Shown here: piece by piece, positions 44,541 to 51,165 of the stretch
How positions within the stretch are numbered: the first letter of the stretch is position 1
How the letters are laid out: each line of letters begins with the position of its first letter
Assembly: GCA_016927555.1 (NCBI GenBank)
Contig: JAFGML010000035.1
Coordinates: forward strand, 1-58,966
DNA length: 58,966 nucleotides
Direction: 5' to 3'
Origin: Thermoplasmatota archaeon
Lineage (GTDB): Archaea > Thermoplasmatota > E2 > DHVEG-1
The notes under the pieces: generated by a model
Told to the model about the DNA's origin: nothing
What the model saw: the letters and a program-made list of their open reading frames with translations, nothing else
The model's database searches: none
Translations under genes and position numbers: made by a program

Positions 44541-45791
44541 TTACACGCCGTTGACGTAGTAATCCTTATCGTAATACGAGGTGGTCATCTCTTCTTTAAT
44601 TACATCTGCGAGGCGTTTAATCCCCTCGAGGATAACTTCATCCTCTGAGTAGGAAAAGTTCAGCCGCATCGAGTTATAGTTGCTGCTGTCGGGGTAGAAG
44701 GCATCACCAACCACGTAGGCAACCTTTTTTGCCAACGCCCGCTTAAACATCAATCGTGTGTTGATGTTCTTCGGCAGGGTCACCCAGAGGAACATCCCGC
44801 CGCCAGGCACGTTCCATTTCGCCTCTTTTGGGAAGTACTCTTTTAATGCTTTAATCATCACATCTCGTTTATGATGGTAGAGTGTCTTGATGTGCTGAAT
44901 CTGCTTGTCCAAGTACCCTCCCTTGACGTACTCGTAGGCGACGTACTGCACGAACATATTAGAGCACAGGTCACTGGATTGTTTGGTGAGCGCGAATTTA
45001 TTGATGATTTCTTCAGAGGCGACCACCCAGGCGAGGCGGAACCCCGGGGCAAGGACTTTGGAGAACGTACCGATGTACACCACCCGTCCTTTCGTATCTA
45101 GAGACTTAATTGGGGGAATCGGTTTACCTTCGAACACCAGCTCTCCGTACGGATCATCCTCAATGATCAAGAAATCGTACTCTGAGGCGATCTCCAGTAG
45201 CTCCTTGCGATGCTCCAAGGAGATGCTCTCACCAGAGGGATTCTGGAAGGTTGCCACCGCGTACAGAAACTTAGGAGTAATCCCTGTGCGGTGTAACCGT
45301 TTCAAGTTCCGTCGTAAGGAATCGATGTCAATGCCTTCGTCGTTCATCGGGATACATTCACAGTTGCCTTGGTACGCATGGAACGCCTGCAGCGCACCGA
45401 GATACGTCGGTGCACTGGTAATGTACGTATCACCTTGTTCTAAAAAATTATAGGCAATAAAGGAAAGTGCTTGCTGGGCACCATTAGTGATCAGGATGTC
45501 ATGCAGCTCACAGTCAATACCCTTCTTTTCCTTCATCCTCTTTGCGAGGACATCACGGAGGAGAGGTAACCCCTCAGTGGTCCCATACTGCAGCGCATTG
45601 TGAATGTTGGTCTTGAACACCTTCTCGATGCACTCATGGATGACGTCAACCGGGAATGCCTGGGGGTTTGGTAAACCGCCTGCCAGCGAGATGAACCCTG
45701 CGCTCTGGGTGAGCTTGAGGAGCTCTCGTATTTCTGAGGATTTCAGGGATTTTGATCGGCTTGTGAACAGACGGTCGTAGTTAACCACCAT
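44541..45791 (-). CDS. PLP-dependent class I/II aminotransferase (LysN/2-aminoadipate-aminotransferase-like)
   Basis: 'FISLAGGLPNPQAFPVDVI', 'LQYGTTEGLPLLRDVLAKRM', 'ITNGAQQALSFIAYNF', 'EDDPYGELVFEG' and 'YIGTFSKVLAPGFRLAWV'. Confidence 0.9.
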   Translation of the reverse strand: MVVNYDRLFTSRSKSLKSSEIRELLKLTQSAGFISLAGGLPNPQAFPVDVIHECIEKVFKTNIHNALQYGTTEGLPLLRDVLAKRMKEKKGIDCELHDILITNGAQQALSFIAYNFLEQGDTYITSAPTYLGALQAFHAYQGNCECIPMNDEGIDIDSLRRNLKRLHRTGITPKFLYAVATFQNPSGESISLEHRKELLEIASEYDFLIIEDDPYGELVFEGKPIPPIKSLDTKGRVVYIGTFSKVLAPGFRLAWVVASEEIINKFALTKQSSDLCSNMFVQYVAYEYVKGGYLDKQIQHIKTLYHHKRDVMIKALKEYFPKEAKWNVPGGGMFLWVTLPKNINTRLMFKRALAKKVAYVVGDAFYPDSSNYNSMRLNFSYSEDEVILEGIKRLADVIKEEMTTSYYDKDYYVNGV

Positions 45792-45880: not shown

Positions 45881-47389
45881 TTATAGATAGGACTTCACTA
45901 ACAATCGTTTCCGTTTCAACGCCCTGTCCAATTCTTTCTCCATATCCCTCGTGTCAATACTCACCCAATGAACAGCATCATGTTCAAACAACTCAAAGAG
46001 AGGGAACCGTCCATCCCAGGGCTCCCAGGTCTTCTGCAACGTCATCCCGCTAATGGTCCGTATATTTGTTGCTCCTATCGCACCCATGGCATCAGCAAAA
46101 GGAATCAACCGATCCATAGGCAGAGCAACACCAATGGTTTGTAAAAAACTCCCAAGAGGTTTCGCACGCGTTGGTAACTCCATGAGATCAGACACCGGGG
46201 TGACCCTGATGACTCTAAACAACGGAGATGGCTCAAAATTCAACGTACTTTCATCATAGACCACTAACCACTGATGCGTTGCTGAGGGAAAAATCTTCAC
46301 TGGCTCCCCCATCATCTCTTTAGTCAAGTACTGGTAGTAGCCATCTAACACCTGCATTTTCCCAGGTTTTGATCCTTTCGGCAGTGCCTGTGTCGTGGTT
46401 TCCATTTCTGTGGCAAGTAACCCAGCAAATTCTTTTGGAGAGACAGTTCCTCCCGTTTCTACAAAGATTTCCTGGGGGGAAAAACATCCTTGTTGATCCC
46501 AGGCACAGACGTCAAGGGACACCAGCTCAGCAATCTCAGATGCCCGCTTTCCCAGATATTCTCTTGCTAATGCGATGAAACTAAATTTATGCCAATGACC
46601 GGCGAGAGGCACTTTATGTCTATGTGAGAGCTCAGAAAGACTCCTGCGTGCTTGTTCCCCGCCTGTCGCACGCACCAGGTCTGATTGTGAAAATAAATAC
46701 TCTTGGACATGCGACTGTTCGCTTCCGAAAGGGAGCACTGCGATGGTAGCGGCAAGCTTCGGGTCGATGTCTGCAATGGATTGTGCGTACAAGGCGCCGA
46801 ACACTGGTTCTTCAGAGGGGACCTTCACCCATGAGGCTGCGTCAACCAGTTTATCCATCACGATTTCAAATGCTGCCAGACCAAGGATGTTCCCTGCGCA
46901 GATATGACCAATGACTTCTGGTTCGTAATTCGAATGACTCACGTGAGGTTTTCCATAGGCTTTGACGTATCCCTCTTGAAAGGGTTGAAAGGTATGGTAC
47001 TCCTGTGGGTTGGGTTTGCCGAATAACGTGAGATTTTCTTTCTTCATCACTTGGAAGAACTGCTGAAAACCCCAGTGCTCAAGCATTTCTACAGAAAAAC
47101 CAGTGATGGTTGGGAGGATTTCCCGCGTCAGTCTCCTCCCCTCGTAGGAGGGATCCATCCATCGGTCATTGACCTTCCCAAGAATGTCTAGAATCTGTGG
47201 GATGTCAAGGGTAAGGAGATACTCGTTTCGCGCTGTTTTTATACCCTGGATGATTTTCTTCAAGGCTTCTTCTGTGAGGATGGGTTTTACAAGAGTGATA
47301 TCATTGCCGGCATCCTCTGACAGAAACTCGATATCGTCGTTTATGCCAAGCGAGGGGTCCCAAAAATAACACTTGATGGTTGTTCCCAT
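45881..47389 (-). CDS. LuxC-like long-chain acyl reductase
   Basis: 'EVIGHICAGNILGLAAFEIVMDKLVDAASWVKVPSEEPVFGALYAQSIADIDPKLAATIAVLPF' and Cys-containing 'SLDVCAWDQQGCFSPQEIFVE'. Consistent with the LuxC acyl-CoA reductase family. Confidence 0.85.
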   Translation of the reverse strand: MGTTIKCYFWDPSLGINDDIEFLSEDAGNDITLVKPILTEEALKKIIQGIKTARNEYLLTLDIPQILDILGKVNDRWMDPSYEGRRLTREILPTITGFSVEMLEHWGFQQFFQVMKKENLTLFGKPNPQEYHTFQPFQEGYVKAYGKPHVSHSNYEPEVIGHICAGNILGLAAFEIVMDKLVDAASWVKVPSEEPVFGALYAQSIADIDPKLAATIAVLPFGSEQSHVQEYLFSQSDLVRATGGEQARRSLSELSHRHKVPLAGHWHKFSFIALAREYLGKRASEIAELVSLDVCAWDQQGCFSPQEIFVETGGTVSPKEFAGLLATEMETTTQALPKGSKPGKMQVLDGYYQYLTKEMMGEPVKIFPSATHQWLVVYDESTLNFEPSPLFRVIRVTPVSDLMELPTRAKPLGSFLQTIGVALPMDRLIPFADAMGAIGATNIRTISGMTLQKTWEPWDGRFPLFELFEHDAVHWVSIDTRDMEKELDRALKRKRLLVKSYL

Positions 47390-47393
47390 GACC

Positions 47394-47798
47394 TTACCCG
47401 TTTATGAAATCAACTGGGATTTTACTTGCCGTGTTGACGAGCTCTTGTGCTGCTTTTGCTTGTTCAAGAATCATTTTTGAATCGCCTTCCACTGTGAACA
47501 TGCCTCTGATTAACCCGCGGAGGGGATCGAGTTCTTTGTTGATGACTTTTTTCCAGTGGGAGTACGGTCCTTTGAGCACAAACTTCGCCTTTTTTTCTCC
47601 TCTCACGAGGTAGGCATCACGGCATTTCCCATGCCAGAGGTCTACGTACACTACTGTTTCGTGAGGGAACCCTTCGTCAGGGGCGATTACAAAGAGGAAA
47701 TCACCTTCCCAGTCTTTTGCAGCCTCAGCATAGGTTGTATTTTTGTTTAGTTCATCTTTGAACATCTTAGCCCATTCATCCGACGGGAAACGTACCAT
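47394..47798 (-). CDS. SCP2 sterol-transfer-like domain protein
   Basis: 'GDFLFVIAPDEGFPHETVVYVDLWHGKCRDAYLVRGEKKAKFVLKGPYSHWKKVINKELDPLRGLIRGMFTVEGDSKMILEQAKAAQELV' is the SCP2 pattern. Start trimmed to MVRFPSDEW. Confidence 0.85.
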   Translation of the reverse strand: MVRFPSDEWAKMFKDELNKNTTYAEAAKDWEGDFLFVIAPDEGFPHETVVYVDLWHGKCRDAYLVRGEKKAKFVLKGPYSHWKKVINKELDPLRGLIRGMFTVEGDSKMILEQAKAAQELVNTASKIPVDFING

Positions 47799-49161
47799 GC
47801 TCTGGTTCCTCCTGTTGCATGAGTTCAGCCATGACTGCAGCGCATCCTCGTCCTTCCACACCTGGAAGACGACTGACCTCGACATCAAGCACCGGTCCTT
47901 GTCGACTACAGACCGGACAGTGGTCTAACATTTTTACTCTATCACCTGTGATGATAAACCCAGGGTAACTCTGTGGTAAGGGGTCAATGAACGCGAACCG
48001 TCCCACTGTGTTATAGCCAACGGGACGTAACTCTTCGTCGAGCACCAAGGGGACGATGACAGGAGGGATGTGTTTGTAATGACCTTCACAGCTGAGAAAA
48101 ATAGAACTACATTCTGACATGGCGTACACATCATGGTAGTGGTCTTGCGGGATGCCTAAGGTGTCTTTGACCTTCTGTCGGAACCGTTCCTCGGGGGGTC
48201 TTTTCTCTTCCTCTGCTTTCCATCCGCCGCCAGTAAGCACCTGGCTGGTCTCTAAGCGCACTGATTTCCCTTCTTTTTTCATCCGCTCAAGAATCCTATC
48301 AAGCCAGAACGGAGGACCAGCGATATTTACTGTCTTCCCTTCTTTTTCAAGGTGCTCTAACAAGTGGATAATCTTCATATCAGAATTTTTTTGCACAAGC
48401 GGACTAATGGTGGCCATCGCTTTTGCTTTGATTTTTTCTGCAATACCAATGGTTTCATCCCGTTGCATACGGAGAAACTGGGTGGTGATTTTCATGTCAA
48501 GGGCAACATGGATGTTCTCTGGTTTGTAAAGATCATAGGCGATACCAAACAAGCTTGCTATCGTCAGGTTAGTTTGCCGAGGATCAGGGATAAGAAGCAC
48601 GATGGTGTCATCAGGATCATAGTTCATCAGCTCTGCGACTGCTACCATCGCATTGTATTTCAACCGGTTCCACGACAGCAAATCCCGGGGGATGAAACTG
48701 AACCGGCCGCTGGTGCCACTGGTGAACATGATGTGAATCCCTTTGTTGTTGTACTCCTCGATGATGGCGTCATGTGAGGGGATAGCCATGGGAAACTCAT
48801 GGGTGGGAAACTCGCCAGAATATATTGCTGCTAACCATTTCAAGAATCCTTTTCCCTCCGGGTAGTCCTTGAAGAAAGCGTCAGGCAGCAGTGGAATGGT
48901 CTTGGCATCATCTGGTGAGGTGATTGTTTCTGGTGTGACGTTGTTCATGTGGCAGATGCGATGGTACAGTGCATTGTTCTCGAAATGGTGTTTAAAACTG
49001 TGTTGAATCGCACGAAAGGTCGACTCTTGAATAGTCGTGTAGTTTGTATAGAACGATGCAGAGGAAAACAAGGCAGCATCCACAGGATTCCATGCTGCTT
49101 GTGGCGGCATGCATTTTTGTAATCGTTGTTGGAGTTCATGATTCAGAGTTGTGTTTTCCAT
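47776..49161 (-). CDS. LuxE-like acyl-protein synthetase / acyl-activating enzyme
   Basis: 'HIMFTSGTSGRFSFIPRD', 'SQVLTGGGWKAEEEKRPPEERFRQKVKDTLGIPQDHYHDVYAMSECSSIFLSCEGHYKHIPP' and 'GRFAFIDPLPQSYPGFIITGDRVKMLDHCPVCSRQGPVL'. Confidence 0.85.
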   Translation of the reverse strand: MENTTLNHELQQRLQKCMPPQAAWNPVDAALFSSASFYTNYTTIQESTFRAIQHSFKHHFENNALYHRICHMNNVTPETITSPDDAKTIPLLPDAFFKDYPEGKGFLKWLAAIYSGEFPTHEFPMAIPSHDAIIEEYNNKGIHIMFTSGTSGRFSFIPRDLLSWNRLKYNAMVAVAELMNYDPDDTIVLLIPDPRQTNLTIASLFGIAYDLYKPENIHVALDMKITTQFLRMQRDETIGIAEKIKAKAMATISPLVQKNSDMKIIHLLEHLEKEGKTVNIAGPPFWLDRILERMKKEGKSVRLETSQVLTGGGWKAEEEKRPPEERFRQKVKDTLGIPQDHYHDVYAMSECSSIFLSCEGHYKHIPPVIVPLVLDEELRPVGYNTVGRFAFIDPLPQSYPGFIITGDRVKMLDHCPVCSRQGPVLDVEVSRLPGVEGRGCAAVMAELMQQEEPEHGTFPVG

Positions 49162-49236
49162 AGTTACTCACCGGTGTTCTCTTGAATAATATGCTGTGCT
49201 GGTCTCACCCCTTCTGAAGAAAGAATCAGAGCCACA

Positions 49237-51165
49237 TTATCCTCCCGCAATGGTATGTACCAGTTCACCGAATATCTGCAACTCTTTCTCAGATAACCCT
49301 TTTGGCAGGGGATAGAAAAAGTGTTCTTTCCTGTACAATCCTTTGTGCAACACGTACTCAACCGGGATGACGTGGTCCATCGCCAGTGTCTTTTGCAAGG
49401 ACTCGACAATTCCTTGATTTAATCGTACATGGTCCTCAGGTTTTGTATGATCGTAGTAATAATCGTATTCAAGGAACGCGAGTTTCCCATGTTCAATGAA
49501 ACCGATGAATCCCAGTGCGTTCACTAAGTGATGTTTCTTCCCAACATCATGAAGCATTTCGGTCATCGATAAAATGAGGTCTTTTTCAGCAGCCATGAAT
49601 CCCCCTCGAACCATGAACATTTTTTGTCGCTGCAGACGACTCGGCAGAATACGGAACGCATGCAGCCAGACTGCATCAGTCATCTCCGGTTTCTCATAGA
49701 CTTTTTTATAAAACCCTTGCAGATCAGGATCAAACGCCTGTGCAATTTTCTCTGGAGATGCCTCTAGTCCTTGTTCAAGATGTGTTTTCATTGGGCCTGC
49801 GAAAAGTGCGTTCAAGGGGTCTTTCTCCTCAGAGAGCACCTTAAGGAACTCACTGTCTTTCAACGAAGCGAGTTTGGGTGCACCAAGCATCAGTGTCTTC
49901 ATCATGGATGAATCCATCGTCACCTTCGCAAGCTCCTCAATCCTCTTTTTATCAACAGTGTCACAGACAACATCAACCACGTACTTCATTTTCAGATGCT
50001 TGCTCATCACGTACTCGACATCTTCTGCTATTTCATTCGTCGGTGAAATGAATTCGGAGAGGTACTTACTTGAGATAATGGCAAGGGATAATCCAATCTT
50101 ACGCTTCGCCAGCACCAAGGCAAGATCCAGGGCATCCTGCAAATGCTCAAAGGGAACAAATACCGCGTACTCATCCTCAAACACAGGGTACAGTTTCACG
50201 GTCATCTCTGTCACAATATGTGAGGGTGTCAGCGTGAGATTCGTAAACGAGTTATCAGTCGCATACGGATTTTTCACTTCTTTATCATTCTGATGGACAA
50301 TGGCTCCATCGTTATTAACCAACTCCACATCAATGAAATTATCTGACCCCCAGCCGTAGGTGTTCCCCCAGGTTGAAATCGGACCAAACGTGGCAACATT
50401 CACACAGACATGTGCTTCTGCTTCAGCAACAAGTGCGCGCATCTGATGAGCATACGCTGCTTTCTGTAGCTCAAAGGCAGTCACCCCAGGGCCAATCGTC
50501 GCTGTCCAACTCTTTGGATGAATCTGGAGTTTTTTCATTCTCCGTAAATCAAGGATCATCCCGCGTTCAAGACTCACTCCTTTCATCAGTAACGTTTGCA
50601 TCGCCATTGCTAAAAACGTCCCATTCCCCCGTGGCATAAACGGGATCTTATGTGTATTGGCAATCTTCACAACCTGTGCAACTTCCTCGGCTGTCTGTGG
50701 CATCACCACATAAAAATTTCCAAGGTGTTCATCAGTGATAATTGACTTAGCGTAGGATGCACTAACAATAGGGTCATTCGTCGCCCATTCATTGCCCACC
50801 ACCGTACGGAGCTCTCGCAAGATGGCATCTTCAGGGATCTTTCGTATGTCACTTGGTTTCAAGTTCTCCGCGTACGTCTTCAACGCCTGTTGCGCCTTCA
50901 TGGGACGCAGGTGGGTGATGAAATGACATTGACGGTCACAGATACCACACATCGTACAAGAGTTCACAATATCTACGAGTGCTTGCGTTGGTGGAACCGT
51001 GCCTGCGGCAAGTGCCTGGACAAGTTCCATACGTCCCTCAGGCCAATACGCCACAAAACCATGTTTGAGTCCTGCAGGACACAACCCGGTCCCCAGGAAA
51101 TCAACCTTGCACATTCCACAATGTGTTTCTTTTTTAGCCATTTCTGCTGCTTCGTGTAGATTCAT
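49237..51165 (-). CDS. FAD-linked oxidase (PCMH-type) with N-terminal Fe-S motifs
   Basis: 'CTMCGICDRQC' ferredoxin-like motif and 'CGMCKVDFLGTGLC', then PCMH-type FAD domain 'YVVMPQTAEEVAQVVKIANTHKIPFMPRGNGTFLA' and 'MILDLRRMKKLQIHPKSWTATIGPGVTAFELQKAA'. Confidence 0.85.
   Translation of the reverse strand: MNLHEAAEMAKKETHCGMCKVDFLGTGLCPAGLKHGFVAYWPEGRMELVQALAAGTVPPTQALVDIVNSCTMCGICDRQCHFITHLRPMKAQQALKTYAENLKPSDIRKIPEDAILRELRTVVGNEWATNDPIVSASYAKSIITDEHLGNFYVVMPQTAEEVAQVVKIANTHKIPFMPRGNGTFLAMAMQTLLMKGVSLERGMILDLRRMKKLQIHPKSWTATIGPGVTAFELQKAAYAHQMRALVAEAEAHVCVNVATFGPISTWGNTYGWGSDNFIDVELVNNDGAIVHQNDKEVKNPYATDNSFTNLTLTPSHIVTEMTVKLYPVFEDEYAVFVPFEHLQDALDLALVLAKRKIGLSLAIISSKYLSEFISPTNEIAEDVEYVMSKHLKMKYVVDVVCDTVDKKRIEELAKVTMDSSMMKTLMLGAPKLASLKDSEFLKVLSEEKDPLNALFAGPMKTHLEQGLEASPEKIAQAFDPDLQGFYKKVYEKPEMTDAVWLHAFRILPSRLQRQKMFMVRGGFMAAEKDLILSMTEMLHDVGKKHHLVNALGFIGFIEHGKLAFLEYDYYYDHTKPEDHVRLNQGIVESLQKTLAMDHVIPVEYVLHKGLYRKEHFFYPLPKGLSEKELQIFGELVHTIAGG

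Follow-up and report, generated by a model that had tools for sequence, protein, structure and literature searches.

The window, a stretch of 58,966 nucleotides (nt; contig JAFGML010000035.1 of assembly GCA_016927555.1), carries at positions 45,881 to 51,165 a gene set for a LuxE-type acyl-activating enzyme, an SCP2-fold protein (denoted SCP2B) and a LuxC-type acyl reductase, preceded by an oxidoreductase that combines a flavin adenine dinucleotide (FAD) domain with an Fe-S part. The set probably interconverts a hydrophobic acid, the aldehyde and the alcohol. Judged from comparison of the relatives, LuxE, SCP2B and LuxC appear to form a constant core, and the FAD/Fe-S gene appears to be an exchangeable module in a slot filled by different paralogues. 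The host is a Thermoplasmatota archaeon (draft genome of 1.47 Mb, 84.7% complete); the genomes of its relatives are mostly titled Thermoplasmata, Thermoplasmatota or Euryarchaeota archaea. The four open reading frames (ORFs) run in one direction on the minus strand where an earlier note on this DNA had placed them, and the Pfam assignments agree with the families named there:

49237..51165, minus strand: FAD/Fe-S oxidoreductase, 642 amino acids (aa), with a GlcD/VAO-type FAD domain (FAD_binding_4, E=2.4e-20) joined to an Fe-S part at the N-terminus
50926..50958, minus strand: CxxCxxCxxxC motif (C70-C80), expected [4Fe-4S] ligands, invariant in 14 homologues
49162..49236, minus strand: 75-nt gap from the FAD/Fe-S gene to LuxE, the position of a further SCP2 gene (SCP2A) in the gene order of most relatives
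47776..49161, minus strand: LuxE-type acyl-adenylating/acyl-transfer enzyme, 461 aa (PF04443, E=1.5e-26; profile match to 7xc6_E)
47842..47844, minus strand: LuxE C440 codon, aligned with the acyl-transfer Cys364 of lux LuxE (profile alignment)
47394..47798, minus strand: SCP2B, SCP2-fold predicted hydrophobic-ligand carrier, 134 aa (PF02036, E=7.3e-9)
45881..47389, minus strand: LuxC-type acyl reductase, 502 aa (PF05893, E=2.6e-60; 7xc6_A, E=2.8e-14)
46484..46486, minus strand: LuxC C302 codon, aligned with the acylation Cys286 of lux LuxC (profile alignment)

The last three genes are as tightly packed as described before: the SCP2B ATG, at 47798, lies 23 nt within the 3' end of LuxE, and 4 nt separate the SCP2B stop from the LuxC start. 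The reported lack of luciferase genes also held, as neither luxA, luxB nor luxD was found among the operon and neighbouring ORFs of the window scanned with Pfam, and the luciferase family PF00296 had no match across the 84.7%-complete draft genome.

The order LuxE-SCP2-LuxC is found again in 13 further genomes or contigs from several genera, and wherever upstream DNA is present SCP2 and LuxE precede LuxC (G000–G008, G012, G017, G027, G034, L097). The flanking genes change from the window to its genus mates and again to other genera; the operon therefore holds together across contexts. Its genes are under purifying selection, with a ratio of nonsynonymous to synonymous substitution (dN/dS) of 0.10–0.16 for three genes in the close pair G008/G001; in other genome pairs the synonymous sites are saturated or nearly so. 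The recurring order and the low dN/dS together exclude a chance association. Co-occurrence of the four genes, as proposed in the earlier note, is thus borne out, with the correction that the typical set has five genes, including the more divergent SCP2A between the FAD/Fe-S gene and LuxE, and that the FAD/Fe-S gene is exchangeable. The operon is patchy: LuxC is missing from the nearly complete genomes G010, G021, G025, G030 and G038 of the same family, and in the phylum sample close LuxC homologues are confined to that family. Genome contigs were scanned with two peptide patterns, which distant operons elsewhere could escape.

The single-contig genome G034 has the operon split within LuxE (L051, L073), with the 5' part of LuxE near 1.50 Mb, whereas SCP2B, LuxC and the remaining 3' part of LuxE are near 0.78 Mb; this is a rearrangement or an assembly error. 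A 7.3-kb contig binned as Peregrinibacteria, a bacterium (L097), holds the whole operon, with a LuxC 65% identical to that of the window, and is probably a misbinned archaeal contig, or else the product of transfer.

The distinction between core and module is drawn from the way the proteins diverge. SCP2B is the most conserved protein of the operon (74–79% identity to the window copy), followed by LuxE (68–73%), LuxC (65–72%) and the FAD/Fe–S protein (53–63%). The operon copies of LuxE form one clade, while a phylogeny of 26 FAD/Fe–S proteins splits the LuxE-adjacent copies between groups (at least four forced changes) and places that of the window nearest to upstream copies of other genera. 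Pairs of FAD/Fe–S and SCP2A genes are also found alone, outside the LuxE operon, and in two genera two FAD/Fe–S–SCP2 pairs precede LuxE. No remnant of SCP2A was found in the window, either within the 75-nt gap or outside it, and the whole draft genome has a single SCP2 match; SCP2A was either lost from the window operon or never present.

Both enzymes of the core fall within the families proposed for them. The LuxC match covers the whole PF05893 domain, and that of LuxE is limited to residues 266-447; each family profile matches the corresponding chain of the solved LuxC-LuxE complex, in the case of LuxE with E=3.6e-27. According to literature quoted in PMC8301110, Cys286 of lux LuxC is the acylation site and Cys364 of lux LuxE the acyl-transfer site. 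C302 of the window LuxC, in WDQQGCFSPQ, aligns with Cys286 in YDQQACFSTQ, both sequences following the pattern DQQxCFSxQ, and is invariant in 11 homologues. In LuxE, C440 lies in GRGCAAVM, and both this cysteine and the SGTSG motif of the ANL superfamily are invariant in 10 homologues.

The SCP2 domain spans the whole of SCP2B, which matches the Thermus SCP2 protein 2cx7 over residues 6-127 (E=1.6e-22). At 14 of 17 loci examined in other Thermoplasmatota, an iron alcohol dehydrogenase (Fe-ADH) gene directly adjoins a close relative of SCP2B. The homologue in Haloferax mediterranei (pHME132) lies amid genes for an alkyl sulfatase, an aldehyde dehydrogenase (ALDH), a Zn alcohol dehydrogenase (Zn-ADH), a long-chain acyl-coenzyme A (CoA) ligase and an acyl-CoA dehydrogenase, with Zn-ADH/ALDH on one side of it and the ligase on the other; the Halococcus homologue has no such alcohol, aldehyde and acyl-CoA surroundings. 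By association, the Fe-ADH and Haloferax neighbours suggest that this type of SCP2 serves aldehyde and alcohol chemistry of hydrophobic compounds, and they would fit a catabolic direction as well as a reductive one. In many Thermoplasmatota the SCP2B-subfamily gene and the Fe-ADH gene make up a two-gene unit (L180-L195), in some cases with a gene for a thiamine pyrophosphate-dependent enzyme upstream.

The oxidoreductase has both the FAD_binding_4 domain and the CxxCxxCxxxC motif of a GlcD/VAO-type enzyme with an Fe-S part. Seven cysteines (C16, C19, C29, C70, C73, C76 and C80) are invariant among 14 homologues, and Fer4_8 scores 24.5 bits, just short of its gathering score of 27. The closest structures by sequence are the lactate dehydrogenase subunit LctD and D-lactate dehydrogenases. 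A search of plasmids with this protein gave partial matches, to the FAD domain only. Its N-terminus presumably resembles a divergent GlcF-type Fe–S domain, and this resemblance suggests a dehydrogenase that hands on electrons rather than an oxygen-using oxidase.

We consider it an even proposition that LuxE and LuxC interconvert a carrier-bound hydrophobic acid and its aldehyde, with the FAD/Fe-S enzyme performing a second redox step. In the scheme that we infer, LuxE would adenylate a hydrophobic carboxylic acid with ATP and take the acyl group onto C440, from which it would move to C302 of LuxC, to be reduced there by NAD(P)H to the aldehyde. SCP2B would hold the hydrophobic substrate or the aldehyde. 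The FAD/Fe-S enzyme, usually together with its own carrier SCP2A, would act on molecules of that same class, most probably between alcohol and aldehyde or in another dehydrogenation, with electrons leaving through the Fe-S centres. The earlier note had the acid reduced to an aldehyde through LuxE and LuxC; the families and the two aligned cysteines agree with this, and the reductive direction is plausible from sequence, but the gene neighbours allow the catabolic one as well.

Several observations weigh against this scheme. Neither enzyme reaches the NCBIfam equivalog cut-off for its lux counterpart (64 against 750 bits for LuxC, 99 against 550 bits for LuxE), the operon showed no LuxD or other supplier of acyl groups, and genome G014 has LuxE with no LuxC match. 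The AlphaFold model of LuxE (predicted local distance difference test, pLDDT, 61) has as its best fold matches the PaaK-type CoA ligases PaaK and BT_0428; since confidence in the models is low to moderate (pLDDT of 61 and 64), fold matches were used for the broad class only, and PaaK-type ligases and LuxE belong to the same ANL superfamily. The fold match nevertheless makes it possible that LuxE passes the acyl group to CoA instead of LuxC. LuxE would then be a PaaK-like CoA ligase and LuxC an ordinary acyl-CoA reductase, linked solely via free acyl-CoA with no protein-to-protein transfer; PF05893 is indeed described as an acyl-CoA reductase, and in other Thermoplasmatota LuxC is fused to an AMP-binding domain. 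The profile scores of 98 bits for LuxE against 18 bits for PaaK, and the alignment of C440 with the acyl-transfer cysteine, make this arrangement doubtful.

A reversal of the pathway is less probable than the scheme above, and deserves more weight than free acyl-CoA. Here a hydrophobic alcohol such as phytol or a fatty alcohol would be oxidised to the aldehyde by the FAD/Fe-S enzyme, LuxC would convert the aldehyde to an acyl thioester and LuxE would handle free acid, ahead of beta-oxidation, with SCP2A and SCP2B carrying intermediates. The Fe-ADH genes beside SCP2B relatives and the surroundings of the Haloferax homologue fit such a route, as does the resemblance of the FAD domain to VAO-group alcohol oxidases and D-lactate dehydrogenases. 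Acyl-CoA dehydrogenase domains occur in 41 of the 43 genomes of the window's family in which physiological domains were counted, the window's own included, but these may act in amino-acid breakdown, and the operon itself has no acyl-CoA dehydrogenase or thiolase. In addition, an ATP-using LuxE paired with LuxC classically works toward the aldehyde.

The lipid genes of the family bear on the nature of the acid. GGGPS, a gene of archaeal isoprenoid lipids, is found in 40 of the 43 genomes and is present in the host; the acyltransferase PlsC (PF01553) is found in none, in a search whose controls worked, and ketoacyl synthase gave weak partial matches, none convincing. This agrees with the isoprenoid lipids assumed for the archaeal host in the earlier note. 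The WS/DGAT domain of the wax-ester route was also matched in none of the 43, but its control likewise matched nowhere. Given GGGPS, the absence of PlsC and the weak ketoacyl synthase, the acid is unlikely to be a membrane fatty acid made by the cell itself; more likely, it is an isoprenoid acid, or a fatty or aromatic acid taken up from outside. It is rather improbable, in our estimate, that SCP2B is a dedicated acyl/aldehyde carrier in a LuxE-SCP2-LuxC complex acting on isoprenoid acids derived from archaeal lipids or phytol, with interchangeable FAD/Fe-S-SCP2A modules setting the substrate specificity.

An ether-lipid step had also been raised in the earlier note, in which the FAD protein, acting like alkyl-dihydroxyacetone phosphate synthase (AGPS), would join a LuxC-derived alcohol to a glycerol backbone. 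The proteins share a flavoprotein superfamily, and AGPS chains are matched (2uuu, E=2e-8; 4bby, E=6e-7). They are, however, outscored by LctD, D-lactate dehydrogenase and VAO chains, and a fold search with the low-confidence model broadly agrees, placing AGPS at rank 50. With AGPS the best match neither by sequence nor by fold, an N-terminal Fe-S part in the FAD protein and no PlsC-type acyltransferase found among the 43 family genomes, we rejected this reading as very improbable.

The known part of the system is the LuxE/LuxC enzyme chemistry; what is new is that a carrier and a flavoprotein accompany it, that the anatomy is modular, and that the host is an archaeon. With the lux LuxC-LuxE complex (PDB 7xc6), which reduces fatty acids in luminescent bacteria, the system shares both enzyme families, both acyl-carrying cysteines and the placement in one operon. 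Identity is very low, however, the window LuxE is about 90 aa longer, and lux has neither the SCP2 nor the FAD/Fe-S partners; the host here is an archaeon, with no genes for fatty-acid membranes found. LuxC/LuxE without luciferase is known from flagellin glycosylation islands (PMC4875605), and such pairs were also found on Lactiplantibacillus and Priestia plasmids and in Verrucomicrobia; being common in bacteria, the pair is not new by itself. The bacterial pairs likewise lie in one cluster with no luciferase among the annotated neighbours, but their LuxC is about 30% identical to that of the window and their partners are ACP, FabG/SDR, transporters or PTPS instead of SCP2 and FAD/Fe-S.

The archaeal clusters of related SCP2 genes with aldehyde and alcohol enzymes, in other Thermoplasmatota and on pHME132, have Fe-ADH, or Zn-ADH/ALDH and FACL, where the window has LuxC and LuxE. 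Bacterial ElbD/AGPS ether-lipid clusters also bring a FAD_binding_4 protein together with acyl-activating and acyl-reducing steps in one pathway, but ElbD consists of FAR, ACS, ACP and acyltransferase parts, without LuxC, LuxE or SCP2 (PMC9131029); by Pfam, none of the four window genes has an ElbD-type FAR, ACP or PlsC-like acyltransferase. FcrA, the wax-ester reductase of haloarchaea, is homologous to HMGR and has no relation to LuxC (PMC11948995). No description of an archaeal LuxE–SCP2–LuxC set was found in the literature searched, which was covered in part. The operon would extend LuxE/LuxC reductase chemistry to archaea that apparently make no fatty acids, and would link this chemistry with SCP2 carriers and an Fe–S flavoprotein specific to the lineage. 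It is small and amenable to experiment. Identifying its substrate would reveal either how isoprenoid or fatty alcohols are turned over in these uncultured archaea or a modification of archaeal lipids that has so far gone unrecognised.

Some further loci were noted. A Verrucomicrobia LuxE-LuxC pair (L105:8733-11673) has a gene for 6-pyruvoyl tetrahydropterin synthase downstream. In other Thermoplasmatota (L079, L080, L083, L086), LuxE stands beside the LuxC–AMP-binding fusion, a different LuxC architecture of about 820-890 aa. Downstream of the operon, at 44541-45791, lies an aminotransferase gene whose best match is to MocR-type regulators, without their DNA-binding domain; it was rejected as an operon member, as it was not found adjoining the operon in relatives. 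LuxE paralogues about 40% identical occur class-wide, with up to four per genome (L032:6910-9283 in the window's own genome, on C8; L016-L050). The copies inspected retain the SGTSG motif and the C-terminal cysteine. A gene for a transglutaminase-like protein almost always comes directly after them, sometimes with an Nramp-like or MFS transporter as well, and the two proteins are possibly an acyl- or amide-forming pair.

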